Origin: an uncultured Carboxylicivirga sp.
GTDB lineage: Bacteria > Bacteroidota > Bacteroidia > Bacteroidales > Marinilabiliaceae
DNA length: 64,000 nucleotides
Assembly (NCBI RefSeq): GCF_963668385.1
Contig: NZ_OY764327.1
Span: forward strand, 3,072,501 to 3,136,500
Direction: 5' to 3'
Under the pieces are notes generated by a model. It was not told the DNA's origin. It was given only the letters and a program-made list of their open reading frames with translations, and ran no database searches. The position numbers and the translations under genes are program-made. Each line of letters begins with the position of its first letter. The first letter of the stretch is position 1. Positions 36,714 to 59,146 of the stretch are shown one piece after another.

Positions 36714-39700
36714 TTATTTGTTAATGCTTCGTCGGTAAGCTGTTGGCGAAATGCCGTATTGTTGTTTGAAACTATAGCTGAAATAACTAATGTCGGTAAA
36801 ACCGCATTTATAGCCAATTTCAGATACCGCGTAATCCGACTCTTCTAAAAGTTTTGTTGCATTTAATAGTCGCATCTTTTTAATAAAAGCATTGGGATTA
36901 AGCTCTACAGCTTTCATTAGTTTACGATATAGCATAGAGTTGCTAACACTCAGTTCTTCGGCCAGCTGTTTTACTGTAAAATTAGGATCGGATAAGTGTT
37001 TGTTAACAACTTTGTTTACTTCGTTTAAGAATTTATTATGGACTTGATTTTTTGAAGTCGTACTTTTAATAATTGGATTTGATTCGGAACTTGTTTGATT
37101 TTTTTGTTCCATCAAATTCTGTACTCTTAATAATAATGTGTTAATGTCAATTGGAATAGGAAGGTAGCTATCAGCTCCAGCTTTGTAGCTTAAAGCTCTT
37201 TCTTCTTCCGATGGACGACCCGATAATAAGATAAAAGGTAGATATTCACCTTGCTTCTTTTTCTTAATCTCTTTACAAATATCAATACCTGATATATTTG
37301 AAGTTGCATTGTTGGAAATAACCAGATCAACTGAGTGTTCGGTAATGTATTTCAATCCACTTTGTCCATTACCGGCTTCCTTCATATTAAAGTATGGATT
37401 TAGCTGATTTACTAACACTCCTCTCAAATCAGCATCGGGCTCAATAATCATGATGGTTGATCGCTCGTCTTTGTTCTGATTCAGATTTCGTAAACTGGTT
37501 ATAATTTCTTCTTCAATAGTTAAAGTGTTTTTCAGAAAATCCATTTTTGCAGTTGAAGAAGGTTGATCGGGTATATCATACGATTCCTTTGAAATAGGAA
37601 TGCGGAATAAGGTTTGTATTTTATTTTCGCTATGTTCTTCGGGCCATAAATTACCTTTATGTAGTTCAATCATTTGTTTGGTAATAGCCATCCCAATTCC
37701 AAAATCCTCCGATAGTTCATATTCTTCATTATTGATGTTTAAATCTTTTTCAACAATTTTATGAGCATTGTTCGAAGTTGTATAGGTTAGCGAGAAGGTT
37801 GCGTAGTTAATATTGTTTTCATTCTCGGTTGATACAAGTAACGTGATTGTTCCTTTGTAGGATGAATGTTGTATTGCAAAGGCAATTAAATTATAGAGTA
37901 CAATATCTATTTTTTCGTAATCGAAATATGCTGTAGGATTATTTATTTGAAAATCATAGCTCAGTAGAATATCTTTCTTAATTAATAGCATCTTAAAGTT
38001 GTTGGCTATATTTTCAACCAAATCCTTTAAATCATATTTGTCAATAGATAGAGAAATTGTATTTGTTTCGGCAGAGCTGTAATATAACAGTTGTTTGGTG
38101 TATCTGATTAGACGGTTTATATTTCGTTGTGCTAGATTTAAATCATTAGGATCCGGAATCTGTTTTTTATGCTTCCAGTTTTGAATAAATACATGTAAAA
38201 TATTTAATGGAGTTGTTAGTTCGTTTGAAATGTTAGCAAATAACTGCTTTTTAAATGTTAATAGTTTTTCTGATTTCTCATGTTCGATGTATTGAATTTC
38301 TAGAGCCTGTTTAAGCTTTTGATTATGCCGTTCTTTACGTATATAATAAACTACTCCGGTTATTAATGTAATAAAATAAAAAGCAATGGCATACCATGTT
38401 TCGTATAGGGCTGGAACAACCTTAATTGTAAATGTTTGAGGAGTCGAATTCCAAACGCCATTATTGTTCGATGCGTTGTACGATAGAGTGTATGTTCCGG
38501 GTTTTAAGTTTGCATACGTTACAGTTCTAGACTTTGCATCGGTATTTCTTTGTTCATTATCTACTCCGATTAACTGCGTTGAATAGTGGTTGTTTTGAGA
38601 ATCGGAATATGAAAGAGCACTTAAAGTGATGGAGATACTGTTTTCGTGATGAGAAAGTGTAATGTTAGAGTTGAGAAAATCAACCGGGTATGATTTATTT
38701 CCAACCTGAATTTTTGTAATAACGGGTTTAGGAACATATGGATTGCTTCTTACTTCTGATGGATCGAAATAATTAAAACCTTTGTTTCCTCCAAAGAATA
38801 GTTTGCCATCATTTGTTGTCAAAGCGGCATGTCTGATAAACTGATTGCTTTGAAGTCCATTAGCTTGAGCGAAGGTGATGCTTTTGGGGTGTGGTAATGA
38901 TTTCATATATTTAATTAACCCATGGTTGGTTGATATCCATAAATTCTGATTAGCATCTTCGCAAATACTGTTGATAACAGAACTGGATAAATCAATACCT
39001 TCATTAATCGTATGAAAATGGTCTTGATCACTTGTTTTTTTGAGTAGGTCACCACTTGCTGTTCCTGCCCAAACAGTTTTATTTGCATCTTCAAACAATG
39101 TCATTATCTGGTTCGAGGGTAAGTAATCATTGCCTTTTTGGTGGTACCCATAATGCTTAAAAATAGCGGGGTAATGTGTGTCAATACTTGATGTTAATAA
39201 ATTAATTCCCTGATCAAGTGTTGCAATCCATATCTGATTATGAGAGTCAAGAATTATACTACTTACCTGATCGCTGCTAATACTGTTATTATCATTTTGA
39301 TATCGATAATTAACCAAACTGAAATTCTTTAGATCAATGGGTTGATGAGGTATGATTTTGTAGACACCTTTTTCTGTTCCCACCCAAATATGATTCGAAT
39401 GGTCTTCAATAATACTAGCTACCTGTTCGGCTTCAAAATCGTAATTATTCTGATTAAGTATTATGTATTCCTTTTTATCAACATCTGTTTTTATAAGCCC
39501 ATGATATCGGGTTCCTAACCATAAATAGCCCTTTGAATCCCAGAAAAAACAGTTAATAGCATTTAGGTTCGTAGGTAAAAAGTTGTAGGTTGATGATTCG
39601 GTATATGGTGTAAAAAGGTGATTTTTTAGGTCGTAAATTCCAAAACCTACACCTCTGGCACTAATTAATAACTGCCCATCTTTATCAAACGAAAATGCAG

Positions 39701-40901
39701 TAACGGTTTGAGTATATAAGTTTGTGTTTTCAATGGGTAAGGTATATGGGGTGAATAATTTTGTAATTGGATCCCAAATGCTAATTCCAGTAATTGTGCC
39801 ACACCATATAAGTCCGGTTTGATCGCAATAGATCGAATAAACTTCATATTCAGGAATCTCTTTTATATCTCCTTTTATTGCTTTAACACTCTTAAATTGA
39901 GGGTTGTCAGAATAAGGTTTGTCTAGTAATACTATACCATTGGGCGTGCCTAACCATATGTTTTTATTTTGGTCTAACTCAATGTCGTATACAATAGTGT
40001 TGTTTGGATTTTTATTGATTAATTTAGTTTTGGTAATTTCTTTTTTATCGGCTAATTCAAATCGTAAAACACCTTTGCCCCATAAACCAAGCCAATAAGT
40101 ATTGTCTTTGCCTTCGGTAATGCAGAATGGTGATGTTTTGGTGAAATCAATGTCTCCATTTAAGTTCGACCAGGCCTTATAGATTTCATCCTTTTCGTTG
40201 ATAAGTATTAAGTTTCCTTCCCAGGAGCAACACCATATATTATCTTTCGAATCACAATAAACAGAAGTGATCCACTCCGAATTCATTTCAATGTGTGAGC
40301 TGTTTCTAGAATATTGAACCAACGAATCTTGCGACTGTAAGTATTTGTATACTCCACTTCCTGCTGTTCCAATCCATAAATTGTGTTGATTATCGAATGT
40401 AATTGAGTTAATCAAGTTATAAGTATTCTCACCCCAAGTCTTGTTAATTGGATTAAAGAAAGAAAATTCTTCAGTGATTAAATCTAATTTGGCAAGGCCA
40501 TGATCTGTAGCACACCATAAGTATTGACTATCATCCTGAGTTATGTCTAAAAAGTTATTGGTTATTAATCCTTTGTTTAAAGAGTTTGAGGTGGTAAAAG
40601 TTTTAAACTCATAACCATCGTACCTTATTAATCCTTCGGCAGTGGCAAACCACATAAATCCTTGTTGATCCTGGTAAACTCGTTTAATCTCTTCCGATGA
40701 TAATCCATCTCTGCTTGTTAGTATATAAGATAGAGTTGTTCCTTCTTCTTGAGCTCTTAATGATATGAATGAAAAAAAGCCTGAAAGTACTATACTGTAT
40801 AGTAGGAATAGTCTTAGGTAGAGCGATGCTGTTCTAATATTATGGAATGTTTTTTTAACAGAAGTTGATTTTTCCATAAAGATTCGATGATATTTTTTCA
40901 T
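36714..40901 (-). CDS. Hybrid two-component regulator (HTCS) with degenerate phosphorelay
   Basis: 1395 residues (a Met 8 codons in is possible). Signal/anchor helix (about 27-47), two seven-bladed Reg_prop propellers (about 60-730), a Y_Y_Y domain (about 745-830), a membrane helix (about 835-855), a kinase-like region, a receiver (about 1145-1260) and an AraC domain (about 1295-1395). The H-box reads FANISNELTTPL: His is Asn893 (codon at 38223-38225). The receiver reads DLVISNNATSN: the acceptor Asp is Asn1197 (37311-37313), and the K-P loop is P-I-P. The G1 box is also degenerate; the G2 box GIGMAI remains partly. Likely controls the adjacent polysaccharide locus by a route other than phosphate transfer. 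Confidence 0.9.
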   Translation of the reverse strand: MKKYHRIFMEKSTSVKKTFHNIRTASLYLRLFLLYSIVLSGFFSFISLRAQEEGTTLSYILTSRDGLSSEEIKRVYQDQQGFMWFATAEGLIRYDGYEFKTFTTSNSLNKGLITNNFLDITQDDSQYLWCATDHGLAKLDLITEEFSFFNPINKTWGENTYNLINSITFDNQHNLWIGTAGSGVYKYLQSQDSLVQYSRNSSHIEMNSEWITSVYCDSKDNIWCCSWEGNLILINEKDEIYKAWSNLNGDIDFTKTSPFCITEGKDNTYWLGLWGKGVLRFELADKKEITKTKLINKNPNNTIVYDIELDQNKNIWLGTPNGIVLLDKPYSDNPQFKSVKAIKGDIKEIPEYEVYSIYCDQTGLIWCGTITGISIWDPITKLFTPYTLPIENTNLYTQTVTAFSFDKDGQLLISARGVGFGIYDLKNHLFTPYTESSTYNFLPTNLNAINCFFWDSKGYLWLGTRYHGLIKTDVDKKEYIILNQNNYDFEAEQVASIIEDHSNHIWVGTEKGVYKIIPHQPIDLKNFSLVNYRYQNDNNSISSDQVSSIILDSHNQIWIATLDQGINLLTSSIDTHYPAIFKHYGYHQKGNDYLPSNQIMTLFEDANKTVWAGTASGDLLKKTSDQDHFHTINEGIDLSSSVINSICEDANQNLWISTNHGLIKYMKSLPHPKSITFAQANGLQSNQFIRHAALTTNDGKLFFGGNKGFNYFDPSEVRSNPYVPKPVITKIQVGNKSYPVDFLNSNITLSHHENSISITLSALSYSDSQNNHYSTQLIGVDNEQRNTDAKSRTVTYANLKPGTYTLSYNASNNNGVWNSTPQTFTIKVVPALYETWYAIAFYFITLITGVVYYIRKERHNQKLKQALEIQYIEHEKSEKLLTFKKQLFANISNELTTPLNILHVFIQNWKHKKQIPDPNDLNLAQRNINRLIRYTKQLLYYSSAETNTISLSIDKYDLKDLVENIANNFKMLLIKKDILLSYDFQINNPTAYFDYEKIDIVLYNLIAFAIQHSSYKGTITLLVSTENENNINYATFSLTYTTSNNAHKIVEKDLNINNEEYELSEDFGIGMAITKQMIELHKGNLWPEEHSENKIQTLFRIPISKESYDIPDQPSSTAKMDFLKNTLTIEEEIITSLRNLNQNKDERSTIMIIEPDADLRGVLVNQLNPYFNMKEAGNGQSGLKYITEHSVDLVISNNATSNISGIDICKEIKKKKQGEYLPFILLSGRPSEEERALSYKAGADSYLPIPIDINTLLLRVQNLMEQKNQTSSESNPIIKSTTSKNQVHNKFLNEVNKVVNKHLSDPNFTVKQLAEELSVSNSMLYRKLMKAVELNPNAFIKKMRLLNATKLLEESDYAVSEIGYKCGFTDISYFSYSFKQQYGISPTAYRRSINK

Positions 40902-41031: not shown

Positions 41032-41059
41032 CAAAGATAATGAAATGATTTATAAACAA
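41032..41059 (-). promoter_or_regulatory. Candidate promoter of the hybrid regulator gene
   Basis: Minus-strand TTG (41057-41059) and TATCTTTG (41032-41039), 17 nt apart, match the phylum consensus. The leader would be about 125 nt. Confidence 0.45.
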
Positions 41060-41178
41060 TACTAAATGAATAAAAAACTACAATCATTCGTTCTGTTTCG
41101 CGTTTATTTGCACAGCTTTCATTTAGGGAAAGTAATATTCAATTGTTAAATATTATTTAAATTCAAAAATAAGTTGTT

Positions 41179-42603
41179 ATGAAAAAATGGTTTCTAACCG
41201 GGAAGCTACTAGCATGCATGTCGCTGTTGCTTTTAGCTTCTTGCGATGATGATGATAAGAGTTGGACAGCTACTTCTGATCCGGTTCTTGCATTCGCATC
41301 AGACAATATCCATAGTCAACCTGGCAGAACTCTTACTATTGGAGGTACTGTTACCGATGAAGTTGGTCTTAAGTCTATAGAAATTAATATAGATGAATGG
41401 TTTTTGGATAAAACTATTGAAGTATATAAAGGTGATGAAGTTAAGCAGAAATTTGACTTGAACTATAATTTTTTAGTTCCTGCAGATTCAGAAGACAAAG
41501 AGTTTATTATTAAGGTTACTGTTACAAATTTAGGAGGAAGAACTACAACTAAAGACTTAAGTGTTTTTATGGATGGTGATTTTGAAAATCCAACTTTAGA
41601 TGTAACTAGTCCGGCAGATGGTTTAACAGTTGAACCTTCTTCTGAACAAGAACTTACTCTTTCTGCTAAAATAGAGGATGCTCGTCAATTAGGTTATATA
41701 GTTGTTGAAGAACCAACTTTAGCATTTTATGATAGTATTTCTTTTATGGGCCAAGGTTTAACTAGTTACGAGTATGCTAGTACCGTTACATTGCCAGCCG
41801 AAGTTGCTGAATATAGTTTTAATTTTTCCGTTGCCGATAGTGCGGGTCTTGTAGTTAATGCAACCAGAGGGGTTTCTGCTTCATATGTATATGCTAAAAT
41901 GTATTTAGCTGACGTTGCAACAGATGCTGAATTAGTTTCTGATTTATTTGGTGTTCCTATGTTGATTAAAACAACTGGTACCAATGTTTTCCAAGCTGAA
42001 TATTATTCTGCAGTACCAAATACTGAAGTTAAATTTATTCCACAAACTTCTAGTTTTGCTCCTCACTGCTTTGGTATTGATCCAGCTAATTCAGAGAAGT
42101 TCATTGATTCACAAAATGCACTTCCAGTAGTACTTCCAGAAGTTGGTTACTACAGAATTAATTTTGACTTGAATGATTTATCTTATAGTGTTGAGAAATT
42201 CACTCCAGATTACTGGTATTACGAATCTCGTACAGAATCAACCGATGATGACTATATCAGTTCTACATGGATTGGTGAGTTAGGTATTGTTGGTAAAGGA
42301 TTTCCAGAGTACGATCAAAACTGGGGTACAGGTAACCCAATCACTTTTGACAGAGATCCTGATAATTTATATGTTTTTACTAAAACATTAGACTTATATG
42401 GTGATGTTGAAATGATCTTCTCTCCTCAGCACCCTTGGGGATGGTGGCCAGAGCCATTCTGGAGATTTGATAATGGTTCTAATCCAGAAACAACGAAGCT
42501 AAACGGTGGAAATAATATTTCTATGAATGTTCCAACCAGAACAAGATATACGATAACATTTGATAGTTACTTAAACAGAGTTAAAGCTGTTAAAGTTGAA
42601 TAA
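41179..42603 (+). CDS. SusE/SGBP-like surface glycan-binding lipoprotein
   Basis: 474 residues, lipobox LASC (Cys23) followed by D-D-D-D, an acidic signal often seen in surface-exposed lipoproteins of Bacteroidota. Two Ig-like/PKD-type repeats (about 35-125 and 133-230) precede a C-terminal beta-rich part (about 240-474) with many Trp and Tyr (DYWYYESR, HPWGWWPEPFW), suited to glycan binding. Placed before susC, unusual since such proteins normally follow susD. The ligand is not readable. A hairpin-like sequence at 42613-42637 lies between this gene and susC. Confidence 0.72.
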   Translation: MKKWFLTGKLLACMSLLLLASCDDDDKSWTATSDPVLAFASDNIHSQPGRTLTIGGTVTDEVGLKSIEINIDEWFLDKTIEVYKGDEVKQKFDLNYNFLVPADSEDKEFIIKVTVTNLGGRTTTKDLSVFMDGDFENPTLDVTSPADGLTVEPSSEQELTLSAKIEDARQLGYIVVEEPTLAFYDSISFMGQGLTSYEYASTVTLPAEVAEYSFNFSVADSAGLVVNATRGVSASYVYAKMYLADVATDAELVSDLFGVPMLIKTTGTNVFQAEYYSAVPNTEVKFIPQTSSFAPHCFGIDPANSEKFIDSQNALPVVLPEVGYYRINFDLNDLSYSVEKFTPDYWYYESRTESTDDDYISSTWIGELGIVGKGFPEYDQNWGTGNPITFDRDPDNLYVFTKTLDLYGDVEMIFSPQHPWGWWPEPFWRFDNGSNPETTKLNGGNNISMNVPTRTRYTITFDSYLNRVKAVKVE

Positions 42604-42676: not shown

Positions 42677-45600
42677 ATGAAAAAAATCATATATAATAAG
42701 TTGTGGCTAACAACTTTACTGCTATTGATTAATGTGTTGGCATTTGCCCAACAAAAAACCATTACTGGTACCATTACCGACCAGAGTGGACCTATCCCTG
42801 GTGTTTCTATCCTTATTAAAGGGACGACTTCGGGTACCATTACAAATATTGATGGACAATATATGCTAGATGCTGAAGTGGGTCAAACTTTAGTTATTAG
42901 TTTTATTGGATATCAAGAACAAGAAAAACAAATTACTGCAGCAGAATCTAAAATTGATTTTGTTTTGGTAGAAGATAATATTGCACTTAACGAAGTAGTG
43001 GCCATTGGTTATGGTAAAGCTCGGAAAAAAGACCTTACCAGTGCTATATCTTCAGTAAATGGAGATGAAGTTAAAACCATGAGTGTAAGTAATCCGGTAG
43101 AGGCGTTGCAAGGAAAAGCTCCTGGTATTCAGGTTACTTCAACAGGAGGCGCTCCGGGTAGTGCACCAAGGGTTTTAGTACGTGGATTTACCTCTGTGAG
43201 TTTAAGTACAAGCCCACTTTATGTTGTGGATGGTGTCCCTATGGGGGATAATCTCAACTTTTTAAATTCAAATGAAATTGATCATATTGATGTGTTGAAA
43301 GATGCTTCTGCATCGGCTATTTATGGTAGTCGAGCTTCTAATGGTGTGATTTTAATTACTACAAAACGAGGATCAGAAGGTAAAACAAACTTTTCGGCTG
43401 ATTTAAGCTATGGAGTTCAAAGGTTTAAAAAACCATTTGAAATGGCTGATGCAACTGAGTATGCTCAAATTATGAATCAGTCGCTTAATAATGCCGGATT
43501 AGCAAGTCGTTTCGATGATCCTGAATCTTTAGGAAAAGGAACTGATTGGTGGGATGCTGGTGTGAACGATTATTCGCCGCAAACAAACTTCTCATTTCAA
43601 GCTTCAGGAGGTTCTGAAAAATATAAGTATTCTGCCTCAATGAGTTATTTTAATCAACAGTCGTTTTATAACTCAGGTGAATGGGAAAGATTTACTGCTC
43701 GTGTTAACCTAGACTGGAAATTTAGTGACAAAGTGTCGGCGGGATTTATGGTAAACCCTCGTCGTGAAAGATGGGATAATACCCCTAGCTGGTATCAAGA
43801 TTACTTATTAATCGATCCTATTACGCCAATTTATCGTCCTGAATCTGAACAAGCAGGATTAAATGAATATAGTATTTTCCAACGTTCGTATTATACTTAT
43901 GTATGGAACCCAATTGCGCGTGATGCTCGTAGTTTTGGAACAGGTGGATATTATGCAGCAGCAACAAGTTTGTTTGTAGCTTATAAGCCAATTAAAGATT
44001 TGGAAATTAAATCACAAATAAGTGGTGATTACCGATATAATCATAAGGATGATTTTGCTCCTGATTTTGTGATTGATGGAGCTCATGAATGGAATGCTGT
44101 GAACAGTGTTTCTAGGGATTATCAATTTGATGATTATTATAACTGGACAAATACAGCTACCTATGATTTCAAACGAAACGACCATAGCTTAAATGTATTG
44201 GGGGGTGTTACTTTTGAAAGATGGAATTATCGTAATATAAAAGGTAGTAAAGAGAATATTCCAAATAATACTGAATTATTACGTGAATTGGATGCTGCTA
44301 CAACCAATGATAAAATCTATGGTAATACTTGGGGTAATACATTAGAATCTTTCTTAGGTCGTGTATCTTATAACTACCTAGGAAGGTATTATATTACCGG
44401 TACTTATCGTGTTGATGGAGCATCTAAATTTTATGGTGACAATGTTTGGGGTTCATTCCCTTCTGCATCTGTAGCATGGCGTATTTCTGATGAATCATTT
44501 ATGGAAAGTTTATCATTTATGGATGATATGAAAATACGTGTTGGCTGGGGACGATTAGGTAACCAAAATATAAATAATGGTTTGTTTAATACTTTATTAG
44601 CTAAGAATTACTATGTCTTAGGTAATGGAGGAAATGTAGTTAATACAACTGCAGTTGATCAGGTGGGTAATCAGGAATTAAAATGGGAAACTGTTGAAGA
44701 TGTTAATGTCGGTGTTGACTTTACTTTGTTTAACAGTAAAATTACCGGATCAGTTGAATATTATCAAAAGAAAACCATTGATATGCTATTCTCAAACGGT
44801 TATCCATATTACAGTGGATATCCAGGATATGCAAGTGTGATGACTAACATTGGCTCGATGAAATCAAATGGGATGGAATTTGCTGTAACCTATCGCGATC
44901 AAGTGGGAGACTTTAAATATGATGTTACATTAACAGCAATGACTGGTAGTGTTGAGATGACTGAATTGTCTGATTCTTCTCCTATAATTTATAGGAAAGA
45001 TGAGAGATCGAGAACTGAAGTTGGTAGTGAACCAGGTTATTTTTACGGATATAAAACAAATGGTTTATTTCAAAATCAATACGATGTCAATTCTCATACA
45101 AGTGATCAAGGAGATTTATTACAACCATTTGCTCAACCAGGAGATATCCGATTTGTAGATTTAAATGGCGACGGAGTATTAGATGGGGATGATAGAACAA
45201 AGCTTGGTAGTCCATGGCCTGATTTTACAACAGGTTTAAATATTAGTGTATCTTATAAAAACTTTGATTTCTTAGCAAACTTATACGCATCGATAGGTAA
45301 CGATGTTGTAAATGAAGTTAAAACCAGTTTATATAGTACAACGGCATCAGAGCACAATGTTATTTCAGGTTTGTTAAACGATGCTTGGCACGGAGAAGGA
45401 ACAAGTAATGATATTCCTCGTGTAAATCATATTGATAATAACCAGAATTACACTCGTTTTAGCGATTTCTTTGTGGAGGATGCATCATTCTTACGTTTGA
45501 AGAATATTCAGTTAGGTTATACTTTACCTGAAAATATTTCGGGTAAAGCTGGTTTAAGTCGTTGTAGAGTTTATGTATCGGGTCAAAATTTAATGACTAT

Positions 45601-45718
45601 TACCGGATACGAAGGTGTTGAGCCTGAGGTAGCAGGAGCTGCTATGGAAGCTGGTTATGGTGGATGGACTTATCCTGTATTGCCAATGTACTTAGTAGGA
45701 TTAAACATTAACTTTTAA
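42677..45718 (+). CDS. SusC/RagA-family TonB-dependent glycan transporter
   Basis: 1013 residues. Signal peptide (cleavage near VLAFAQ), a carboxypeptidase-D-like N-terminal domain (about 25-100; GTITDQSGPIPGVSILIKG), then the TonB box and plug (ALNEVVAIGYGKARKKDLTS, SPLYVVDGVPM, ASASAIYGSRASNGVI) and a 22-strand barrel ending in N-I-N-F. All typical SusC features. With the SusD protein it forms the outer-membrane bed-and-lid importer of oligosaccharides. 35 bp before susD. Confidence 0.96.
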   Translation: MKKIIYNKLWLTTLLLLINVLAFAQQKTITGTITDQSGPIPGVSILIKGTTSGTITNIDGQYMLDAEVGQTLVISFIGYQEQEKQITAAESKIDFVLVEDNIALNEVVAIGYGKARKKDLTSAISSVNGDEVKTMSVSNPVEALQGKAPGIQVTSTGGAPGSAPRVLVRGFTSVSLSTSPLYVVDGVPMGDNLNFLNSNEIDHIDVLKDASASAIYGSRASNGVILITTKRGSEGKTNFSADLSYGVQRFKKPFEMADATEYAQIMNQSLNNAGLASRFDDPESLGKGTDWWDAGVNDYSPQTNFSFQASGGSEKYKYSASMSYFNQQSFYNSGEWERFTARVNLDWKFSDKVSAGFMVNPRRERWDNTPSWYQDYLLIDPITPIYRPESEQAGLNEYSIFQRSYYTYVWNPIARDARSFGTGGYYAAATSLFVAYKPIKDLEIKSQISGDYRYNHKDDFAPDFVIDGAHEWNAVNSVSRDYQFDDYYNWTNTATYDFKRNDHSLNVLGGVTFERWNYRNIKGSKENIPNNTELLRELDAATTNDKIYGNTWGNTLESFLGRVSYNYLGRYYITGTYRVDGASKFYGDNVWGSFPSASVAWRISDESFMESLSFMDDMKIRVGWGRLGNQNINNGLFNTLLAKNYYVLGNGGNVVNTTAVDQVGNQELKWETVEDVNVGVDFTLFNSKITGSVEYYQKKTIDMLFSNGYPYYSGYPGYASVMTNIGSMKSNGMEFAVTYRDQVGDFKYDVTLTAMTGSVEMTELSDSSPIIYRKDERSRTEVGSEPGYFYGYKTNGLFQNQYDVNSHTSDQGDLLQPFAQPGDIRFVDLNGDGVLDGDDRTKLGSPWPDFTTGLNISVSYKNFDFLANLYASIGNDVVNEVKTSLYSTTASEHNVISGLLNDAWHGEGTSNDIPRVNHIDNNQNYTRFSDFFVEDASFLRLKNIQLGYTLPENISGKAGLSRCRVYVSGQNLMTITGYEGVEPEVAGAAMEAGYGGWTYPVLPMYLVGLNINF

Positions 45719-45753: not shown

Positions 45754-47364
45754 ATGAAAAAAAATAAATATATTCTAATAATAGCTTTGTTTCTAGGAAT
45801 TCTCACTTCCTGTAAAGATTATTTAGAAGTTGATCAAAGAGGAAAGCAGACTCTAGATAATTACTTTGCTAATGAAACAGAGAGTGAAGTTTTTATTAAC
45901 GGATTATATCGTTCTCTTACTTTTTATAGCGATTGGTGGCAACAGTATATGTTTATTACCAATAATATGGCGACTGATGATGCATGGATGGGTAACATGA
46001 GTCAGGATCCTAGTGGTAACTACCCATACGCATTCTATACTATCGATGCTTCTAATGCACCAGGTAATTTACTTGACCAATATGTTCACGATTATTACCA
46101 TTTGTATAATTGTAACATTGCAATTAATCGTTTGCCGGGTGCAAATATTGAAGAAAATTTAAAACAACAGTTTATTGCTGAAGCTAAATTCTTGCGTGCT
46201 TTTACTTACTGGGAATTAGTTCAAAACTTTGGTGATGTTGTGTTAGTGACTGAGCCATTAGCGGTAAGCGAATTAAACATGGAGCGTTCTCCTAAAGAGG
46301 TTGTTTATGCGCAGGTGGTTAAGGATTTAAAAGAAGCTGCAGCTGTTTTACCTGAAAGATTTACCTCTGAAAATGTAGGGCGTGCAACAAAATATGCTTG
46401 TCAGGCTTTATTAGCTCGTACTTATTTGTACATGAAAGATTATCCAAATGCATATGCATATGCTGATAGTGTAATCAGAAGAGGTGGATATCAGTTAGAG
46501 CCTAACTTTGTTGATATCTGGAGTGTATACAATCACAATGGACAGGAATCTATTTTTGAGGTTCAAACAAGCGAAAATCAGGATTTCTCTGTAGGTAATA
46601 TGTTTTCAGTAGTAATGAATGCTCGTTCTGAAATTTGGTCTGATGATGAAGCAGATAAAATTATGGATGGTTGGGGATGGAATGTTCCTTCTTCACATCT
46701 TGAGCAAGCTTACCTGTCAGAAGGTGATGAAATCAGAAGAAAGAGTACCATTATTCGTTACGGCGAGCCTGTATATGGTGACGAGGAGTTAAATCCAAAT
46801 TATCAGTTCAACATTGATATTAATAAATCAGGTAGAACATGGCGTAAATTTTATGTGCCTATCGAAATGCGTAGATCTATCGCAAAGAAAGATGGACATA
46901 TTCCATTGCCATTTGTTTTACTTCGTTTAGGCGAAATGTATTTAACAAGAGCTGAAGCAGCATATTTCAATGGTGATATAGACCAAGCTCATCAAGATAT
47001 TGCTACAATCCGTGGCCGCGTTGGTTTAGGTGATAAAAATGATTTAACAGGTAACGATTTATTATATGCTATCTGGAAAGAACGTAGATTGGAAATGGCT
47101 TGCGAAGGCCAACGTTTATTCGATTTACGTCGCGAAATTGATCCTGTACAAAACAAACCAATGATTGACTTGGCAATGGGTCCTAATGGATACTTTGTGA
47201 AATATAACTTGGAAGAAAGTACTGATGAGTACGAAACTATCCATCCAGGAGAAGATCAAAGTAAGGGTTCTTTCTTTGTTGAAGGAAGACATGAACTTTG
47301 GCCTATTCCTCAGTCAGAAATTGACCGTACCAATGGAGTAGTATCTCAGAATCCAAATTACTAG
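45754..47364 (+). CDS. SusD/RagB-family outer-membrane lipoprotein
   Basis: 536 residues, lipobox LTSC (Cys20). The SusD TPR core is seen in HLYNCNIAINRLPGAN, KFLRAFTYWELVQNFGDVVL, and the C-terminal RAEAAYFNGDIDQAHQDIATIRGRVGL and WKERRLEMACEGQRLFDLRR segments. Ends with HELWPIPQSEIDRT, the family's usual end. It binds glycan at the surface and caps SusC. A strong terminator follows at 47380, so downstream enzyme genes are probably expressed at a lower level or from another promoter. Confidence 0.95.
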   Translation: MKKNKYILIIALFLGILTSCKDYLEVDQRGKQTLDNYFANETESEVFINGLYRSLTFYSDWWQQYMFITNNMATDDAWMGNMSQDPSGNYPYAFYTIDASNAPGNLLDQYVHDYYHLYNCNIAINRLPGANIEENLKQQFIAEAKFLRAFTYWELVQNFGDVVLVTEPLAVSELNMERSPKEVVYAQVVKDLKEAAAVLPERFTSENVGRATKYACQALLARTYLYMKDYPNAYAYADSVIRRGGYQLEPNFVDIWSVYNHNGQESIFEVQTSENQDFSVGNMFSVVMNARSEIWSDDEADKIMDGWGWNVPSSHLEQAYLSEGDEIRRKSTIIRYGEPVYGDEELNPNYQFNIDINKSGRTWRKFYVPIEMRRSIAKKDGHIPLPFVLLRLGEMYLTRAEAAYFNGDIDQAHQDIATIRGRVGLGDKNDLTGNDLLYAIWKERRLEMACEGQRLFDLRREIDPVQNKPMIDLAMGPNGYFVKYNLEESTDEYETIHPGEDQSKGSFFVEGRHELWPIPQSEIDRTNGVVSQNPNY

Positions 47365-47486: not shown

Positions 47487-49094
47487 ATGGCATTTATAAA
47501 AATATCGACTTGCCTTGCATTTATTATAGCTTTAACGTGCTCATGTAATAGCAATAAAAAAACTTCAACGACGGGTGCACAGGAAGTTTTGATCAACTCA
47601 AATCAAAGTTTTCAAACCATGGAAGGGTTTGGAGCATCTGATTGCTGGACACTTCAGTTTGTTGGTAAAAACTGGCCCGAAGAAAAGAAAGAAGCAATAG
47701 CCGATTTATTATTCAGTAAAGAAAACGATGCAAATGGCAATCCTAAAGGTATTGGTTTGTCGCAATGGCGATTTAATATTGGTGGGGGTACCGCTGAACA
47801 AGGCGATAAAAGTGAAATACCAAGTAATTGGAGAAGAGCCGAGTGTTTTTTAAACGCCGATGGAACTTATAACTGGAATAAGCAGATTGGACAACAATGG
47901 TTTTTGAAAGCTGCTCAACAGAGAGGGGTTGAATCATTATTGGCCTTTAATAATACAGCGCCTGTTTACTTTACCAAAAATGGAAAAGGATGGTCGCCTG
48001 GTGGTCATCAATATAATTTAAAAGCAGATAAGTACGACGACTATGCTCAATTCTTAGTAGAAGTTTGTCAACACTTTGAAAACGAAGGCCTGGCTTTCGA
48101 TTATATCAGTCCATTTAACGAACCTCAATGGGACTGGAAAGCTCCTGCAACACAAGAAGGCAGTCCTGCCTGGAATGAAGAAATTGCTAAGTTAGTAAAG
48201 GAATTATCACCTGTTTTAGCTCAGAAAGTTCCTCATGCATTAATTGCAATTCCCGAAGCTGCTCAGCTTCAGTTTTTATATGAAAATAGAGGGTATAAAA
48301 ATCGCGATAATCAGATAAAAGATTTATTTAATTCGGCATCCGATATGTCTGTAATAGATCTTCCCAATGTAAAAAAGACTGCGATGGGCCATAGTTATTT
48401 TACAACTAATATTATGGATACCCTTATTACTGTAAGAGAAAAATTACGCGATTATTTAGATAATAATACAAAGGATGTCAATTATTGGCAAAGTGAATTC
48501 TGCATTCTTGAATCGCATGAAGATATTGGTGGAGGACACAAAAGAGATTTGGGTATGGCCACTGCCTTATATGTAGCAAGAGTTATTCATGCTGATTTGG
48601 CAATAGGTAATGCTTCACTTTGGAGTTGGTGGACTGCCGTTTCGCCTAATGATTATAAAGATGGTTTGGTATATATTGATTTAGGACCAGAGGTAAAACG
48701 AACTGAAACTTACGATGCTCAGTTGCAAAAAGATGGATATGTATACGATTCGAAATTGATGTGGGCATTGGGTAACTATTCTCGTTTTATTTCTCCGGGA
48801 ATGGTTCGCATCGATACACATTTAGAGAATTCTCCATCTCTTAAAGATCAAATGACTCAGTTGATGATTAGTGGATATGGAACAGTTGAAAAGGATAAAT
48901 ATGTTTTTGTAGCTGTTAATTATCAGGATAAAGAAACAGATCTTTCATTCAATGAATTTATGAAAGAGAATGATGATATGACAGCAAGTTGTTATATCAC
49001 ATCTGACGATAAAAATCTGGAAAAAACCGAAATAAATGAATCGGATATTCACATTCCGGCTCGCTCTGTAGTAACATTCGTTTTTGAACGATAA
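47487..49094 (+). CDS. GH30-family glycoside hydrolase, lipoprotein
   Basis: 535 residues, lipobox TCSC (Cys20). The (beta/alpha)8 barrel keeps GFGASDCW and the acid/base in SPFNEPQWDW (Glu212), and the nucleophile in YWQSEFCI (Glu337), followed by a beta-sandwich domain that ends IPARSVVTF. GH30 retains beta-glucosidase, beta-xylanase, beta-1,6-glucanase and beta-1,6-galactanase activities in different subfamilies; I cannot assign the subfamily. GH30 with GH5 and GH43 suggests a branched plant hemicellulose or arabinogalactan-type glycan (inference). It starts 122 bp after susD. Confidence 0.85.
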   Translation: MAFIKISTCLAFIIALTCSCNSNKKTSTTGAQEVLINSNQSFQTMEGFGASDCWTLQFVGKNWPEEKKEAIADLLFSKENDANGNPKGIGLSQWRFNIGGGTAEQGDKSEIPSNWRRAECFLNADGTYNWNKQIGQQWFLKAAQQRGVESLLAFNNTAPVYFTKNGKGWSPGGHQYNLKADKYDDYAQFLVEVCQHFENEGLAFDYISPFNEPQWDWKAPATQEGSPAWNEEIAKLVKELSPVLAQKVPHALIAIPEAAQLQFLYENRGYKNRDNQIKDLFNSASDMSVIDLPNVKKTAMGHSYFTTNIMDTLITVREKLRDYLDNNTKDVNYWQSEFCILESHEDIGGGHKRDLGMATALYVARVIHADLAIGNASLWSWWTAVSPNDYKDGLVYIDLGPEVKRTETYDAQLQKDGYVYDSKLMWALGNYSRFISPGMVRIDTHLENSPSLKDQMTQLMISGYGTVEKDKYVFVAVNYQDKETDLSFNEFMKENDDMTASCYITSDDKNLEKTEINESDIHIPARSVVTFVFER

Positions 49095-49106: not shown

Positions 49107-50141
49107 ATGAAAAAAATACTTTTAAGCTTATTAGGGCTTGCTTTTATTGCTATGTCGTGTAGCGATAGTTCAAGCGACCCCGCCCCTGGACAAGAAGATG
49201 ACAACAAAGTGGAAGATCCTGCTGCAAATATTGATTTTACTCAGCCTATTAGAGGGGTGAACTGGGCTGATGCAAGAGATAATTTTGTGGATGGATTGTT
49301 ATTGCCAAGTGGTTTAACCTCTGGCGATAATTATTATATGGTACAAGTTAATGCGCAATACATCATTAATGGTTTTATTAAAAACATGGATGCCAATACG
49401 GTTCGATTACCTATAAATTATGCAACGGTAAGCAGCTCTTGGTGGAATGGTTATAAAGGTGCCATTGATAAAGCCGTTGAAAAAGGAATGAGAGTGATAC
49501 TTGCCTATTGGGAAGGAGATAGCTCGCGTGATGGCAAGGTGGATGATGCTGCCGAGTTCTGGGAAATGTGGGCAACTGTAACAACTGATTATGCCGATAA
49601 TAAAGGGGTTTATTTCGAAGTGATGAACGAACCTCATGGGTATTCTCTTACTGAATTAACTGATTTATATGCTTCGTGGTTAGAGGAGTTTCCTACTATT
49701 CCTCATAGTCGTATATTATTGGGAGGAAAAGGTTGGAGTGAAGATGTAACCGGAGTTGGTGCCGATGCTCGTTTTTCTGATTGTTTATTATCATTACATA
49801 ATTATGCTTTCTGGGCTGAACGATCAGCCGACGAATGGAGAACTGATTGGTTAAACCGAATTGGTGATTATGGCAGCAGAACTGTTGTAACCGAGTTTGG
49901 AAGTACCATGACTCAAGGTAAAGATTATAACTCAACTCAGGAAGGGGATAATGAGGTGGATTATATTCAGGCAGCTACTGCAATATTCCGCGAAAAGGGA
50001 GTGCAAAGCGTTTATTGGCCTGGTTTGCGCGATGGCGACTGGTATAGTATTCAAACATACAATCCTGCAACATATACCTTGAGTACCACTAACCAATCGG
50101 GTTTAAGCCAGATCCGATACGGATGGGGATTTAATGATTAG
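49107..50141 (+). CDS. GH5-family glycoside hydrolase, lipoprotein
   Basis: 344 residues, lipobox AMSC (Cys18), then an acidic linker. The barrel shows RGVNWADARDNF, NTVRLPINY, the acid/base in FEVMNEPHGYS (Glu175), a His-Asn-Tyr (HNY) and the nucleophile in VVTEFGST (Glu263), followed by YWPGLRDGDW. GH5 retains endo-beta-glucanases, mannanases and related enzymes; the subfamily is not assigned. It lies 12 bp after the GH30 gene and 20 bp before the GH43 gene, in one operon. Lipid-anchored, probably at the cell surface. Confidence 0.85.
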   Translation: MKKILLSLLGLAFIAMSCSDSSSDPAPGQEDDNKVEDPAANIDFTQPIRGVNWADARDNFVDGLLLPSGLTSGDNYYMVQVNAQYIINGFIKNMDANTVRLPINYATVSSSWWNGYKGAIDKAVEKGMRVILAYWEGDSSRDGKVDDAAEFWEMWATVTTDYADNKGVYFEVMNEPHGYSLTELTDLYASWLEEFPTIPHSRILLGGKGWSEDVTGVGADARFSDCLLSLHNYAFWAERSADEWRTDWLNRIGDYGSRTVVTEFGSTMTQGKDYNSTQEGDNEVDYIQAATAIFREKGVQSVYWPGLRDGDWYSIQTYNPATYTLSTTNQSGLSQIRYGWGFND

Positions 50142-50161: not shown

Positions 50162-52063
50162 ATGAAGTATATATATAAATTAGTCACGATTGTTGTTTTG
50201 AGCTTGTTACCAGTTGTGGGATTTGCTCAAAAAGCTACCGATGCAAATAAGTATTCAGCCTATCTATTTACCTATTTTACCGGTAATGGTATGGATCAAG
50301 AGCAAATTCATTTTGCAATTAGTGAAGATGGCTACCATTTTTCAGCTTTAAATTATGATGCTCCGGTAATTAAATCAACCGAAATTAGTTCAACAGGTGG
50401 AGTACGCGATCCTCATATTTTAAGAGGCGAAGACGGAAAAACGTTTTACATGGTTGTAACCGATATGGTGTCGGCCAATGGCTGGAGCTCGAACCGTGCA
50501 ATGGTGTTGTTAAAATCAACCGATTTGGTGAATTGGTCTTCAAGTGTGGTTAATATTCAAAAGAAATACGATGATCAGGAAAGATTAAGAAGAGTTTGGG
50601 CCCCTCAAACTATTTTTGATCGCGAGGCTGGCAAGTATATGATATATTGGTCGATGATGTACGAAGGTGGTGGTGATATTATCTACTATGCGTATGCAAA
50701 CGATGATTTCACCGATATCGAAGGTCGTCCAAAACAATTATTCTTCCCTAAGAATAAACTGTCGTGTATCGATGGTGATATAATTTATAAAGATGGTAAG
50801 TACCACTTGTTTTATAAAACCGAAGGACATGGTAATGGTATCAAAAAAGCCACAACTACTTCGTTGACTTCCGGTAAATGGGAAGAGCAGGATAATTATC
50901 TGCAACAAACAACCGAGCCTGTTGAAGGTGCAGGTGTGTTTAAGCTGATTAACGAAGATGCCTACATTTTAATGTACGATGTGTACACAGCGGGTAAATA
51001 TCAATTCACAAAAACTACTGATCTAGAAAACTTCACCATTGTGGATCAGGAGGTAGAAATGGATTTTCATCCTCGTCATGGAACGGTTATTCCAATCACA
51101 TCTGAAGAATTAAACCGATTGAAGGATAAATGGGGGCAAGCGTTTACTGCCGATATTCAATTGGGAAGCAATCCTGTTTTGAAAGGATATTATGCCGACC
51201 CGGATGTATTGTATTCGCACAAAACCAACAAGTATTATATCTATCCAACCAGTGATGGTTTTGATGGATGGTCGGGTACTTTCTTCAAAACCTTTTCGTC
51301 GAAAGATATGGTTGACTGGAAAGATGAAGGTGTAATTCTGGATTTGAAAAAAGATGTGAAGTGGGCCGATCGTAACGCATGGGCTCCTTGCATCATAGAA
51401 AAAAAGGTAGGTAAGAAATATAAATACTACTATTATTTTACTGCAGCGCAAAAAATTGGAGTTGCAGTTGCCAATAAACCAGAAGGTCCATTCAAAGATT
51501 CGGGTAAGGCGTTAATTGCTGAACGTCCCGAAGGAGTTAACGGTGGTCAGGAGATTGATCCGGATGTGTTTCAAGATCCTGTAACTAAAAAATCATATTT
51601 GTACTGGGGTAATGGATATATGGCGGTTGCCGAGTTAAACGACGATATGGTGTCGATCAAGCCCAATACTACCAAGGTGATTACTCCGGATAATACATTC
51701 CGCGAAGGAACAACCGTTTTGTATCGCGATGGATTATACTATTTTTTATGGTCGGAAGATGATACCCGCAGTGCAAATTACCGTGTTCGTTACGGAGTAT
51801 CTAAATCTCCGGTAGGTCCTATCACCATTCCTGATCATAACCTGATTTTAAAGCGTGATGATTCAAAAGGTATTTATGCTACCGGGCATAATTCTGTAAT
51901 TCAGGTGCCAGGAAAAGATGAATGGTACATTGTTTATCATCGTTTTCAACGACCTGACGGTATAAAAATGGGAGATGCCGCCGGATTTCATCGCGAAGTT
52001 TGTATCGATCGAATGCAGTTTAACGAAAAAGGAGCTATAGTGCCCGTTGTACCTACAAAATAG
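50162..52063 (+). CDS. Double GH43-type glycoside hydrolase
   Basis: 633 residues, signal peptide ending near VGFAQ. Two five-bladed propellers in tandem: module 1 (about 30-300) with GGVRDPHI, DGDIIYKDG and PVEGAGVF; module 2 (about 320-625) with YYADPDVLY, EIDPDVFQD and FREGTTVLY. In each the Asp-Asp-Glu catalytic set of GH43 appears to be in place. GH43 covers alpha-arabinofuranosidases, beta-xylosidases and beta-galactosidases/galactofuranosidases. Two intact modules in one chain could act on different linkages. Last gene of the locus, with a terminator 30 bp downstream. Confidence 0.85.
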   Translation: MKYIYKLVTIVVLSLLPVVGFAQKATDANKYSAYLFTYFTGNGMDQEQIHFAISEDGYHFSALNYDAPVIKSTEISSTGGVRDPHILRGEDGKTFYMVVTDMVSANGWSSNRAMVLLKSTDLVNWSSSVVNIQKKYDDQERLRRVWAPQTIFDREAGKYMIYWSMMYEGGGDIIYYAYANDDFTDIEGRPKQLFFPKNKLSCIDGDIIYKDGKYHLFYKTEGHGNGIKKATTTSLTSGKWEEQDNYLQQTTEPVEGAGVFKLINEDAYILMYDVYTAGKYQFTKTTDLENFTIVDQEVEMDFHPRHGTVIPITSEELNRLKDKWGQAFTADIQLGSNPVLKGYYADPDVLYSHKTNKYYIYPTSDGFDGWSGTFFKTFSSKDMVDWKDEGVILDLKKDVKWADRNAWAPCIIEKKVGKKYKYYYYFTAAQKIGVAVANKPEGPFKDSGKALIAERPEGVNGGQEIDPDVFQDPVTKKSYLYWGNGYMAVAELNDDMVSIKPNTTKVITPDNTFREGTTVLYRDGLYYFLWSEDDTRSANYRVRYGVSKSPVGPITIPDHNLILKRDDSKGIYATGHNSVIQVPGKDEWYIVYHRFQRPDGIKMGDAAGFHREVCIDRMQFNEKGAIVPVVPTK

Positions 52064-52134: not shown

Positions 52135-53889
52135 ATGAAGTTACCAAGACTATCCATTAGGTTTAATTTAAATGATGTAAAAGTTAGTAAGCGACTAATT
52201 ATTAGCTTTGCAGTTTTGATTGTACTGATGTTTGTAGTTGGCGCATTTAGCGTGCTTACTATTCGCAGTACTGAGGAGGGGGCTGAGATTCAAGCCTATA
52301 TCGAGAATGCAATATCGGATGTGCGCGTTATTAATGAGCACAATATTGCTTATCGATACGATCGTAATGATTATCGTCCGGATATTATTCGCGATAAAGT
52401 GGGTAATGGAGTGTGGGTCTTAGATCAGTTACAGCCATATGTACCTGAATCTATTCAAGCACGTTTTGATTCTGCTTATACAGATTTGTTTAGTCTAACA
52501 GAGTTTACCGAAGACTATTTTCAATCGGCCTTAACATACGACAGTTTGGCTAATTTAGGAATTGATCAAGGGGCAGAATTGATAGCATATTACGAAGATT
52601 CATCTTTGCCTTTCTCGCAAAAAAGAGCTGCTTTTCAAGCTTTAGAACTACTGCATTTAGAATTAGTGAAACATCGGTTGCATCAGGGAATGATTAAAGA
52701 CTTTTCTCCAATTGATCAATCATTAGAAGTGATTACTGAACAGGTTAATTCAACTCACCCCGACGAGCAGGCCTTTGCAATGGTAAGTGATTTGAAAAAT
52801 ACCATTGATCAGTTTAAAACGATTCATGAGCACACAGGCTGGGTTAACTGGAAAATTGAGAATGTTTCGTTCAATGCCATTACTAATATCGATACAATGT
52901 CAACTCGCTTTAAAACGTACTTAAGTGATGAAATGAAGCGTAATATTCTGATTATTGTACTAACTATTGTGTTCTCTTTATTGTTTGCAGGAGGTATTGC
53001 TTTTGCGCTTATCCGATCGATTAATGTGGGCTTAAGCGAGGTAATTGACATTGCAGGTCAAATTGCCAAAGGTAATCTTAGTTTAGATGCTTTAAATAAA
53101 AGTAAAGTACGCAAAGACGAATTTGGAGTGTTAAAACAAGAGTTTGGTTTAATGTTACAATCGTTGCGCAACAATGTAAATAGTTTACTTGAAATGTCGA
53201 GTGTGTTGGAATCAACGGGTGATGCTTTGTTACAAAGTGCTCAGCATATATCGAATAATGCAACTGGTCAGGCTGCATCGGTTGAAGAAATTAGTGCTAC
53301 CCTTGATGAAATTGCAGTTGATATTGAAAGCAGTGCTGAAAATGCCAGTAAAACAAAACAATTATCTAATGAGTCGATGCAGTTTGTTGAAAAGATTGCA
53401 GAGCGTAATCAGCTGATGATTGATAAATCGGTGCAGATCGAAAGTGAGTCGGAGACTGTAACTCAAATTGCTTTACAAACCAATATTCTAGCTTTAAATG
53501 CAGCGGTTGAAGCTGCCATAGCCGGAGTAGCTGGCAGAGCCTTTGGTGTGGTTGCAACGCAGGTGAAAGAACTGGCAAATACCAGTAAAAAAGCTGCTGA
53601 TCGAATTATTAATCTATCAAAAGAAGGAGTGGAGTCATCAACCGAAGGTGGTGAGATGGTAAATAAAGTACTTCCTAGTCTGCAACAGATCGATGAAAAA
53701 ATCGATGAAGTGGCATTTGCCACTAACGAACAACGTTATAAATCCCAACAAATTATTAAAGCATTACAAAATCTGAACGACCTGTCGCAGGTGAACGCAA
53801 CTCAGTCAGAGGAGTTATCTGCCAGTTCCGAAGAATTAAAAGATCATGCTATTCAGTTAAAACATCAAGTCGATTTCTTTACATTATAA
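52135..53889 (+). CDS. Methyl-accepting chemotaxis protein-like receptor with atypical hairpin tip
   Basis: 584 residues. A first membrane helix (about 24-45), a periplasmic four-helix-like domain (about 46-265), a second helix (about 266-290), HAMP (about 290-345) and a long signalling coiled coil. The tip QTNILALNAAVEAAIAGVAG-RAFGVVAT departs from the usual AARAGExGRGFAVVAxEV: the Arg and Glu corresponding to Tsr 388 and 391 are Ile and Val, and the Glu matching Tsr 402 is Gln. No che gene is near. It begins 71 bp after the GH43 gene, past a terminator. Sugar-linked chemotaxis is only an inference. Confidence 0.85.
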   Translation: MKLPRLSIRFNLNDVKVSKRLIISFAVLIVLMFVVGAFSVLTIRSTEEGAEIQAYIENAISDVRVINEHNIAYRYDRNDYRPDIIRDKVGNGVWVLDQLQPYVPESIQARFDSAYTDLFSLTEFTEDYFQSALTYDSLANLGIDQGAELIAYYEDSSLPFSQKRAAFQALELLHLELVKHRLHQGMIKDFSPIDQSLEVITEQVNSTHPDEQAFAMVSDLKNTIDQFKTIHEHTGWVNWKIENVSFNAITNIDTMSTRFKTYLSDEMKRNILIIVLTIVFSLLFAGGIAFALIRSINVGLSEVIDIAGQIAKGNLSLDALNKSKVRKDEFGVLKQEFGLMLQSLRNNVNSLLEMSSVLESTGDALLQSAQHISNNATGQAASVEEISATLDEIAVDIESSAENASKTKQLSNESMQFVEKIAERNQLMIDKSVQIESESETVTQIALQTNILALNAAVEAAIAGVAGRAFGVVATQVKELANTSKKAADRIINLSKEGVESSTEGGEMVNKVLPSLQQIDEKIDEVAFATNEQRYKSQQIIKALQNLNDLSQVNATQSEELSASSEELKDHAIQLKHQVDFFTL

Positions 53890-58379: not shown

Positions 58380-59135
58380 TCATTTTTTCATCATTTGCTT
58401 TGTTTCTTTTAGTCTGTACGATTCACCATTCATATTTATTAAGTATGCCTTATGAGTCAGTCTGTCGACAAGAGCAGCTGTTAATACTGGATCTCCAAAT
58501 ATTTCTTCCCATCGATCAAAACCAAGATTGGTTGTAATAATGGTTGATTTACGTCCAACCCTTAATGATAAATGGTTAAAAAGAAGTTCAGAACCTTCTT
58601 TATCAAAGGAGATATAACCAAATTCATCACATATAACCAGATCGTATTTTTCAAACTTAAGTTCCATTTGGCGTAATGAACGTTCAGAGTGAGCCTCTCG
58701 TAGTTGGGTTAGCAGTCGGTGCACCGTTGTAAAAAGCACTTTGTAGCCTTGCATGCAAGCTTTAAGACCTAAGCCTGTTGCAATATGAGTTTTACCCGTT
58801 CCCGGATTACCTGCCAATACTATGTTTTGACCTTCAGCGATAAAATCAAGCCTTTCCAACAATGGTAGTTTTTCATTTGCATCGGGTGGCAACTGGTCTC
58901 TTTTTAAATCACCCAGATACATTTTAGCAGGAAAACCGGCTAACCTGATCTGTGATTTCTTTCGGTTTTCAAGGCGTACTTCAAACTCTTTTTCCATTAA
59001 TTTGAGCAGATATTGTTCGTAATCCAGATTTTCTTTGGCTGCTTCCTGGGCTATATGCTTAAAATCTCTTCTGAAAACAGGCAATCTAAGCTCTTTGCTG
59101 TATTTGATGATTTCGTTATTTGTATAATTATCCAT
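58380..59135 (-). CDS. istB: IstB-like ATPase, IS21 transposition helper
   Basis: 251 residues. AAA+ motifs: Walker A GNPGTGKTHIA (about 108-118), Walker B LVICDEFGY (about 170-178), and a sensor-like S-T-I-I-T-T-N. The N-terminal 70 residues bind DNA or partner. The gene starts 11 bp after the istA stop, normal for IS21. IstB assembles on DNA and directs the transposase to the target. Full length and undamaged. Confidence 0.95.
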   Translation of the reverse strand: MDNYTNNEIIKYSKELRLPVFRRDFKHIAQEAAKENLDYEQYLLKLMEKEFEVRLENRKKSQIRLAGFPAKMYLGDLKRDQLPPDANEKLPLLERLDFIAEGQNIVLAGNPGTGKTHIATGLGLKACMQGYKVLFTTVHRLLTQLREAHSERSLRQMELKFEKYDLVICDEFGYISFDKEGSELLFNHLSLRVGRKSTIITTNLGFDRWEEIFGDPVLTAALVDRLTHKAYLINMNGESYRLKETKQMMKK

Positions 59136-59146
59136 GACTTGATTTT

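Follow-up and report, generated by a model that had tools for sequence, protein, structure and literature searches.

Hybrid two-component systems (HTCSs) of polysaccharide utilization loci (PULs) in Bacteroidota are represented by BT4124 and BT4663. An S/CHIP-DK contact between receiver and DNA-binding domain (DBD) keeps the DBD down until phosphorylation, and substitutions in it release the DBD (Gao, Wu and Stock 2024, PMC11253607; papers are cited here for the parts of their text that were available). In electrophoretic mobility shift assays, changes in this contact let two HTCS response regulators, BT4124 and BT4663, bind DNA unphosphorylated (PMC11253607). For HTCS motifs in DNA, direct repeats with an average period of 21 bp have been reported (Ravcheev et al. 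2013, PMC3878776). One HTCS of B. thetaiotaomicron, BT4236, carries Gln for the kinase His and a contact that reads CSIP-EK, and a phosphorylation-independent mechanism has been suggested for it (PMC11253607). We describe here P0001, an HTCS encoded in a 64,000-nucleotide stretch of an uncultured Carboxylicivirga sp. genome (GCF_963668385.1, contig NZ_OY764327.1, positions 3,072,501 to 3,136,500; hereafter the window), which has lost the phosphorylated residues of both its kinase and its receiver. We assign a probability of roughly 0.57 to the reading that P0001 has been converted from an HTCS into a phosphate-free, one-component transmembrane switch, maintained and built from two-component parts. 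Proteins of this type probably carry their signal by shape change alone. The parts of the gene are as follows (window positions, all on the minus strand).

36714..40901, minus: HTCS regulator P0001, 1395 amino acids, with inactivated kinase and receiver sites (open frame, Pfam domains)
38622..40739, minus: periplasmic propeller region, residues about 55-760 (Reg_prop, E 2.4e-45)
38418..38612, minus: Y_Y_Y domain, residues 764-828 (Pfam, E 7.1e-13)
38316..38378, minus: transmembrane helix before the dimerization and histidine phosphotransfer (DHp) domain, residues about 842-862 (hydrophobic stretch, read by eye in the translation)
38058..38288, minus: DHp/HisKA segment, residues 872-948 (67.5% identity to relative L111, 45.6% overall)
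38223..38225, minus: Asn893, replacing the phosphorylated H-box His (codon AAC, alignment)
37587..38018, minus: catalytic and ATP-binding (CA)/HATPase_c domain, residues 962-1105, second N-box Asn and G1 box lost (alignment; secondary structure of the fold seen in the AlphaFold2 model)
37107..37463, minus: receiver domain, residues 1147-1265, Asp, second acid, Thr and Lys lost (alignment; alternating strands and helices in the AlphaFold2 model)
37311..37313, minus: Asn1197, replacing the phospho-accepting Asp (codon AAC)
37236..37247, minus: receiver loop EYLP, usually S/C-H-I-P in HTCSs, of the inhibitory receiver-DBD contact (consensus from PMC11253607)
36729..37040, minus: AraC-type DBD, residues 1288-1391 (HTH_18, E 1.6e-18)

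P0001 is the window's own HTCS, a single uninterrupted frame of 1395 codons in a host genome of one contig (6.27 Mb). Reg_prop, Y_Y_Y, HisKA, HATPase_c, Response_reg and HTH_18 were all recognised and complete, and the chain thus holds the propeller, Y_Y_Y, HisKA, HATPase_c, receiver and AraC domains of an HTCS. An earlier note, made from the sequence alone, had described the propeller, Y_Y_Y and AraC domains as full length with no frameshift, and this was borne out. HisKA reached 26.5 bits against a Pfam cut-off of 26.9, HATPase_c scored at its cut-off, and Response_reg had an E-value of 6.8e-13. Residues 350-835 matched the solved two-component sensor 4a2l (E 6.6e-68).

Asn893 and Asn1197 align with the H-box His and the phospho-accepting Asp of relatives and of 14 further HTCSs from the same genome. 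Both AAC codons pointed out in the earlier note proved correct, as did its P-I-P at the K-P loop, where the Lys has become Ile1249 and the cis-Pro is kept, and its degenerate G1 box, which is lost. The second N-box Asn is replaced by Phe1008; the first N-box Asn and the G2 box (GIG) are kept. In the receiver, the acid pair is E-P, not E-D (Pro1155), the switch Thr is Ser1227, and the switch Tyr is retained. The contact motif reads EYLP-HK. Judged as a phosphotransferring HTCS, P0001 lacks the H-box His, the Asp with its acid pair, Thr and Lys, the N and G1 boxes and the S/CHIP-DK contact. Its Response_reg domain is recognised with the acceptor Asp absent, as in aspartate-less receivers, and its HisKA and HATPase_c domains are recognised with the His absent, which is the sequence side of the definition of a pseudo-histidine kinase.

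Such losses were not found in the HTCSs used for comparison. Both residues are kept in 14/14 other HTCSs found in the same genome (at least 14, counted among the best 30 of 136 matches) and in all 23 HTCSs that aligned through the AraC domain among 80 loci of named genomes; the other 57 loci gave no alignment through that domain or, for L098, were not an HTCS. HisKA domains without His make up 0.9%, and receivers without Asp 2.0% (Bourret et al. 2025, PMC12632262). The loss in P0001 is accordingly more than chance. Sequencing error was rejected as an explanation: the Asn H-box occurs in three genomes, and Asn1197 occurs in one genome only, yet adjacent catalytic residues are altered too.

The three genomes emerged from a search of 71 genomes of P0001's family, of which 10 had a match at E <= 1e-170, P0001's own genome included. 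The nearest relatives are L111 (47% identity) and L119/L124 (46%), and both have the Asn H-box; His is therefore replaced by Asn in 3/3 members of this first group, which spans two genera. Across the 71 genomes, a degenerate DNA pattern coding for N-[IV]-[ST]-N-[ED]-hydrophobic-x-T-P matched three times, exactly in the genes of P0001, L111 and L124. His and Asp are both kept in relatives L112-L118 (37-41%), in the more distant L120 (32%) and in the paralogue L002 (34%). The 13 other genomes of the genus yielded no match, whether at E <= 1e-250 or, with eight candidates scored per genome, at E <= 1e-170, and a general scan of genome contigs, which may not have covered very near genomes, gave no relative above 28% identity. 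Faster evolution of P0001 than of L111 over the whole protein was ruled out, the identities to L112 being 39.5% and 39.6%.

The receivers of L111 and L124 keep the Asp and Lys, but the second acid has become Pro, the Thr has become Ser and the M-P motif is absent. Conservation of both Asn residues is thereby ruled out, and the earlier note's view that both ends of the relay were lost together has to be given up: the loss of His is common to P0001 and its two relatives, the loss of Asp is found in P0001 only. The losses were thus stepwise: the kinase site went first, together with part of the receiver site, and the receiver Asp and Lys were lost later, only in P0001's lineage. The earlier note had named clade orthologues that keep His and Asp as evidence that would go against it, and these exist in part, since the relatives outside the trio keep both residues and the trio shares the Asn H-box. 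The receivers also bear on residual phosphorylation, in which Asn1197 would deamidate to Asp or receivers of the L111/L124 type would be phosphorylated by small donors. Maule et al. 2015 (PMC4395418) cite a case in which a receiver Asn reverted to Asp, and L111 and L124 hold the residues for the second route; P0001, however, also lacks the second acid, Thr and Lys, and its kinase has no His, which makes this explanation very improbable.

A second group was found outside the family. The same DNA pattern gave 14 matches in 393 genomes of the order, ten of which did not resemble a kinase H-box (13 were read, with L147, L149 and L151 kinase-like by eye; the 14th was P0001). The matches in a kinase context were thus P0001, the HTCS L151/L154 and two other kinase-like proteins. 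The latter, L147 and L149, are two further sensor-kinase-like proteins with an Asn H-box, as read around the H-box only. L154, a full HTCS, has a SusC-like gene as its direct divergent neighbour. Its family (123 genomes) held 46 matches at E <= 1e-200 in 32 genomes; the counts here use 20 of these, the query gene among them, and the other 26 include two at 46-47% identity. The H-box His is replaced by Asn in 14/14 genes read from the second group, and this Asn is among 13 invariant columns of 74 compared in the DHp. The acceptor Asp has become Glu in 13 genes and Lys in one. Glu also stands at the acceptor position of the ChxR receiver. Both His and Asp are kept in the sister pair L163/L165 and in L171-L174.

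In a tree of 44 sequences, from which L124 was left out, the 14 Asn genes formed one clade (100% bootstrap), sister to L163/L165 and far from the clade of P0001 and L111 (also 100%). Accordingly, the loss of His occurred at least twice, in a count that covers His to Asn only and leaves Gln, Tyr and other replacements outside the survey. The frames of the 14 genes run to 1223-1380 codons; for six, a stop was flagged within the match, yet each of these is open over at least 1324 codons, and L169 has 1223. A SusC-like gene was directly divergent in four of five further stretches of this family, next to an Asn gene in stretches L175, L178 and L179 and next to the intact L163 in stretch L177; L176 differs. 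In L163 and L165 Ser takes the place of the second N-box Asn, and L163 also has a degenerate G1 box. These two are possible intermediates of the second loss.

The complete S/CHIP-DK motif was found in 0/16 Asn genes, compared with 13/28 intact genes. Here the D and K positions were set from the 39-residue spacing in BT4124, L124 was left out of the 16, and L174, gapped at two motif positions, was counted as not complete. This result also fits the main rival explanation, in which P0001, its contact gone, sits always on its operator as an ungated activator or repressor whose effect is set by protein amount. In BT4124 and BT4663, substitutions of this kind allow DNA binding without phosphate, and the deviant HTCS BT2391 represses its own PUL (PMC11253607). 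Against it stand the complete sensor and membrane linkage and a propeller that, in both groups, has diverged less than the kinase domains, features for which an ungated regulator would have no use. We consider constitutive binding unlikely.

The contrast between domains was expressed as distance ratios of Asn genes over intact sisters with the topology fixed. In the second group, relative to intact L163, the propeller (1.80), Y_Y_Y (1.74) and the DBD (1.45) had lower ratios than the DHp (4.57) and the CA domain (2.90) (the receiver value, 34.7, is unreliable with its near-zero denominator). These values suggest that sensor and DBD are more constrained than the kinase domains in this group. The corresponding first-group ratios were 1.32 (propeller), 1.36 (Y_Y_Y), 2.42 (DHp), 2.11 (CA), 1.88 (receiver) and 2.01 (DBD), and the stem branch leading to this group is long for the CA, receiver and DHp domains.

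P0001 is transcribed divergently from SusC- and SusD-like genes, with a predicted tandem operator of about 21 bp in between, as expected at an HTCS locus. The features on this side are listed below (all on the plus strand).

41046..41057, plus: predicted operator half-site 1 (position weight matrix (PWM); 3 of 2000 shuffles reach the tandem score)
41067..41078, plus: predicted operator half-site 2, 21 bp downstream of half-site 1 (PWM)
41103..41110, plus: promoter-like element TTTATTTG, 24 bp after half-site 2
41179..42603, plus: DUF4625/Ig-like protein, first gene of the divergent operon (homologue in 9/10 relatives' stretches, not L132)
42677..45718, plus: SusC-like TonB-dependent receptor (domain search, locus comparison)
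45754..47364, plus: SusD-like protein (domain search, locus comparison)
47487..49094, plus: glycoside hydrolase of family GH30 (PF14587, E 5.1e-144)
49107..50141, plus: glycoside hydrolase of family GH5 (Cellulase)
50162..52063, plus: glycoside hydrolase of family GH43

The operator was first recognised by eye in all ten intergenic regions, after which a typed consensus of six intact-HTCS loci served to train a PWM. The operator consists of two TGAATRAAAAAC-like half-sites 21 bp apart, with a TTWWTTTG element 25 bp on in 5/6 intact loci; at L130 the register was shifted (score 15.6), with the element at 29, and at L131 the PWM failed. The three Asn loci, the window, L123 and L124, scored 14.9, 22.2 and 15.9, values reached by 3, 0 and 2 of 2000 dinucleotide shuffles, and 21 bp was the best period among 14-31 at each of them. 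The element lies 24 bp after half-site 2 in the window and 25 bp after it at L123.

The same operator bears on the earlier note's alternative of a heterodimer, in which an intact HTCS would supply the phosphate. Partners are at hand: the genome has the at least 14 other HTCSs, its closest paralogue, L002, faces a similar PUL, and in genome G046 the Asn gene has an intact HTCS, L138, some 48 kb away. No operator was found at the L002 locus, though, where 1179 of 2000 shuffles reach the score, and no second HTCS was seen among the window's own matches or beside L111 and L124 (5-10 kb each side). With Asp, Thr and Lys gone, the P0001 receiver would be a passive subunit at most. The alternative thus finds little support, and we regard it as decidedly improbable.

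A decaying gene, whose HTCS function is lost and whose frame is not yet disrupted, was also considered. The occurrence of the group is patchy, one of its three members is frameshifted, and the CA domain of P0001 stays fast after the stem (1.20 versus a mean of 0.55 in intact sisters). Decay is hard to reconcile with the open frame of P0001, with the retained predicted operator, with an independent group of 14 long frames and with the pace of P0001 after the stem, which is near that of intact sisters in the receiver (0.39 versus 0.40) and the DBD (0.40 versus 0.33). The small Asn group, the independent 14-gene group, the kept operator and the constrained sensor and DBD of the second group together favour a different mode of signalling, and decay appears rather improbable. 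The earlier note's phrase, selection for a different mode and not decay, is to this extent strengthened; the Asn pair that it relied on is not conserved, and one relative is frameshifted.

We therefore return to the phosphate-free switch. In the proposed mechanism, a presumed ligand, a glycan fragment, would bind the periplasmic propeller/Y_Y_Y dimer, and the conformational change would travel via the membrane helices into the DHp bundle. This bundle would stay a dimer and a conduit, though no longer phosphorylatable. Its geometry, with CA and receiver as spacers, would decide whether the two AraC domains fit the 21-bp tandem operator, and the AraC pair on the operator would then activate, rather than repress, the divergent susC operon without any phosphate.

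Several observations weigh against this reading. The contact motif is incomplete in the intact sisters too (0/6 complete in the first group, 0/2 in the second), which rules it out as a mark of the Asn genes alone. Phosphate may still play a role in L111 and L124. In the HTCS gene of L124 (G046; L124:10426-14590), a frameshift in the DHp, either real or an assembly error, splits the gene and the first 60 residues are missing, and the best operator pair at this locus lies one unit nearer the promoter-like element (4, not 25 bp). Conservation within the first group is highest in the DHp (67% for P0001 versus L111 or L124; 46% overall) and lowest in CA (38%). The DHp also ranks first in most intact pairs, where CA stays close to the overall value, and DHp conservation therefore carries no special weight. 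The second-group ratios rest on one intact sister lineage, and the first-group DBD ratio is near that of CA, which weakens the contrast there. Finally, AlphaFold2 models (36 sequences) gave the expected DHp, CA, receiver and DBD strands and helices for P0001 (mean predicted local distance difference test score 80.9, predicted template modelling score (pTM) 0.57) and similar values for intact L112 (81.7 and 0.56); with pTM so alike they offer no view on domain arrangement, and a distinction between open and closed receiver-DBD arrangements was dropped. A fold search with both models listed hybrid, ordinary and pseudo-kinases alike and so did not discriminate. PDB chain 12aw_A, named hybrid two-component system protein, matches residues 1147-1391 (E 1e-31) and is a possible template for domain arrangement.

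The altered contact in intact sisters suggests that contact erosion may precede loss of the phosphate chemistry. Taken with the second group, this leads to a broader proposal, which we hold tentatively and at somewhat less than even odds. HTCSs would have become a phosphate-free "pseudo-hybrid" class at least twice: the receiver-DBD contact (and in the second lineage also the ATP site) would have eroded first, followed by His to Asn and by Asp to Asn or Glu. The Asn is kept in all 17 known genes, and the DHp dimer, not phosphate, would relay the sugar signal to the promoter.

The surrounding loci were compared as well, except for L118, which lies on a short contig. At the Asn loci the HTCS faces DUF4625-SusC-SusD, with GH30 after SusD in the window and L123; the L124 stretch ends within SusD. 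In intact L112-L117 and the paralogue L002, the HTCS faces an extra GH30 gene, then DUF4625-SusC. This directly facing GH30, present in six intact loci and the paralogue locus (L125-L131), is missing at the three Asn loci. The window's SusC has its nearest counterpart at L124 (74.5%), and the HTCSs of these two loci share only 45.5%; L111 and L124 are 69% identical in HTCS and 68% in SusC. With SusC nearest to L124 though P0001 is equally far from both relatives, the locus looks mosaic. A methyl-accepting chemotaxis protein gene (52135-53889) lies between the PUL and a valyl-tRNA synthetase gene, and an IS21-type element (58380-60679; IstB-like ATPase and Mu-type transposase) lies downstream of the latter.

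P0001 shares with BT4124, BT4663 and other PUL HTCSs of Bacteroidota its domain order, its divergent susC/susD and a tandem operator with a 21-bp period. It differs from them in having no phosphorylatable His or Asp, no N2 or G1 motifs and an altered contact. BT4236 is likewise an HTCS that lacks the kinase His, and its contact motif is deviant too; that case is one protein with Gln, where P0001 has Asn, and the available text of PMC11253607 mentions no receiver loss, conserved group or repeated loss for it. BT4236 was the only HTCS that we found described without His in a literature search that left subscription journals mostly outside its scope; the same search gave no HTCS with both sites lost and no repeated loss. 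No phospho-site mutants were found in the available parts of PMC3404733.

Among aspartate-less receivers, Glu and Asn are the two commonest replacements, and RitR has Asn (PMC4395418). Like these and other pseudo-receivers, some of which are joined to a DBD, P0001 has the fold without the acceptor Asp (PMC12632262, PMC4395418, as far as their available parts go). Pseudo-receivers usually take their input from a separate or unknown protein, whereas in P0001 the sensor is covalently joined. The pseudo-histidine kinase DivL is, in the available accounts, likewise a kinase-like protein without normal kinase function that is kept for signalling, as P0001 would be; DivL regulates another kinase, whereas P0001 has its own DNA-binding output. 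Pseudo-receivers and pseudo-kinases are each already known. How pseudo-receivers are switched on and off is described as a major unknown, and functional convergent evolution among them as unclear (PMC12632262). P0001 offers a pseudo-receiver fused to its own sensor and its own DBD, with a predicted operator, intact relatives at loci of the same type as controls and a second independent group, which makes the question of pseudo-receiver switching directly testable.

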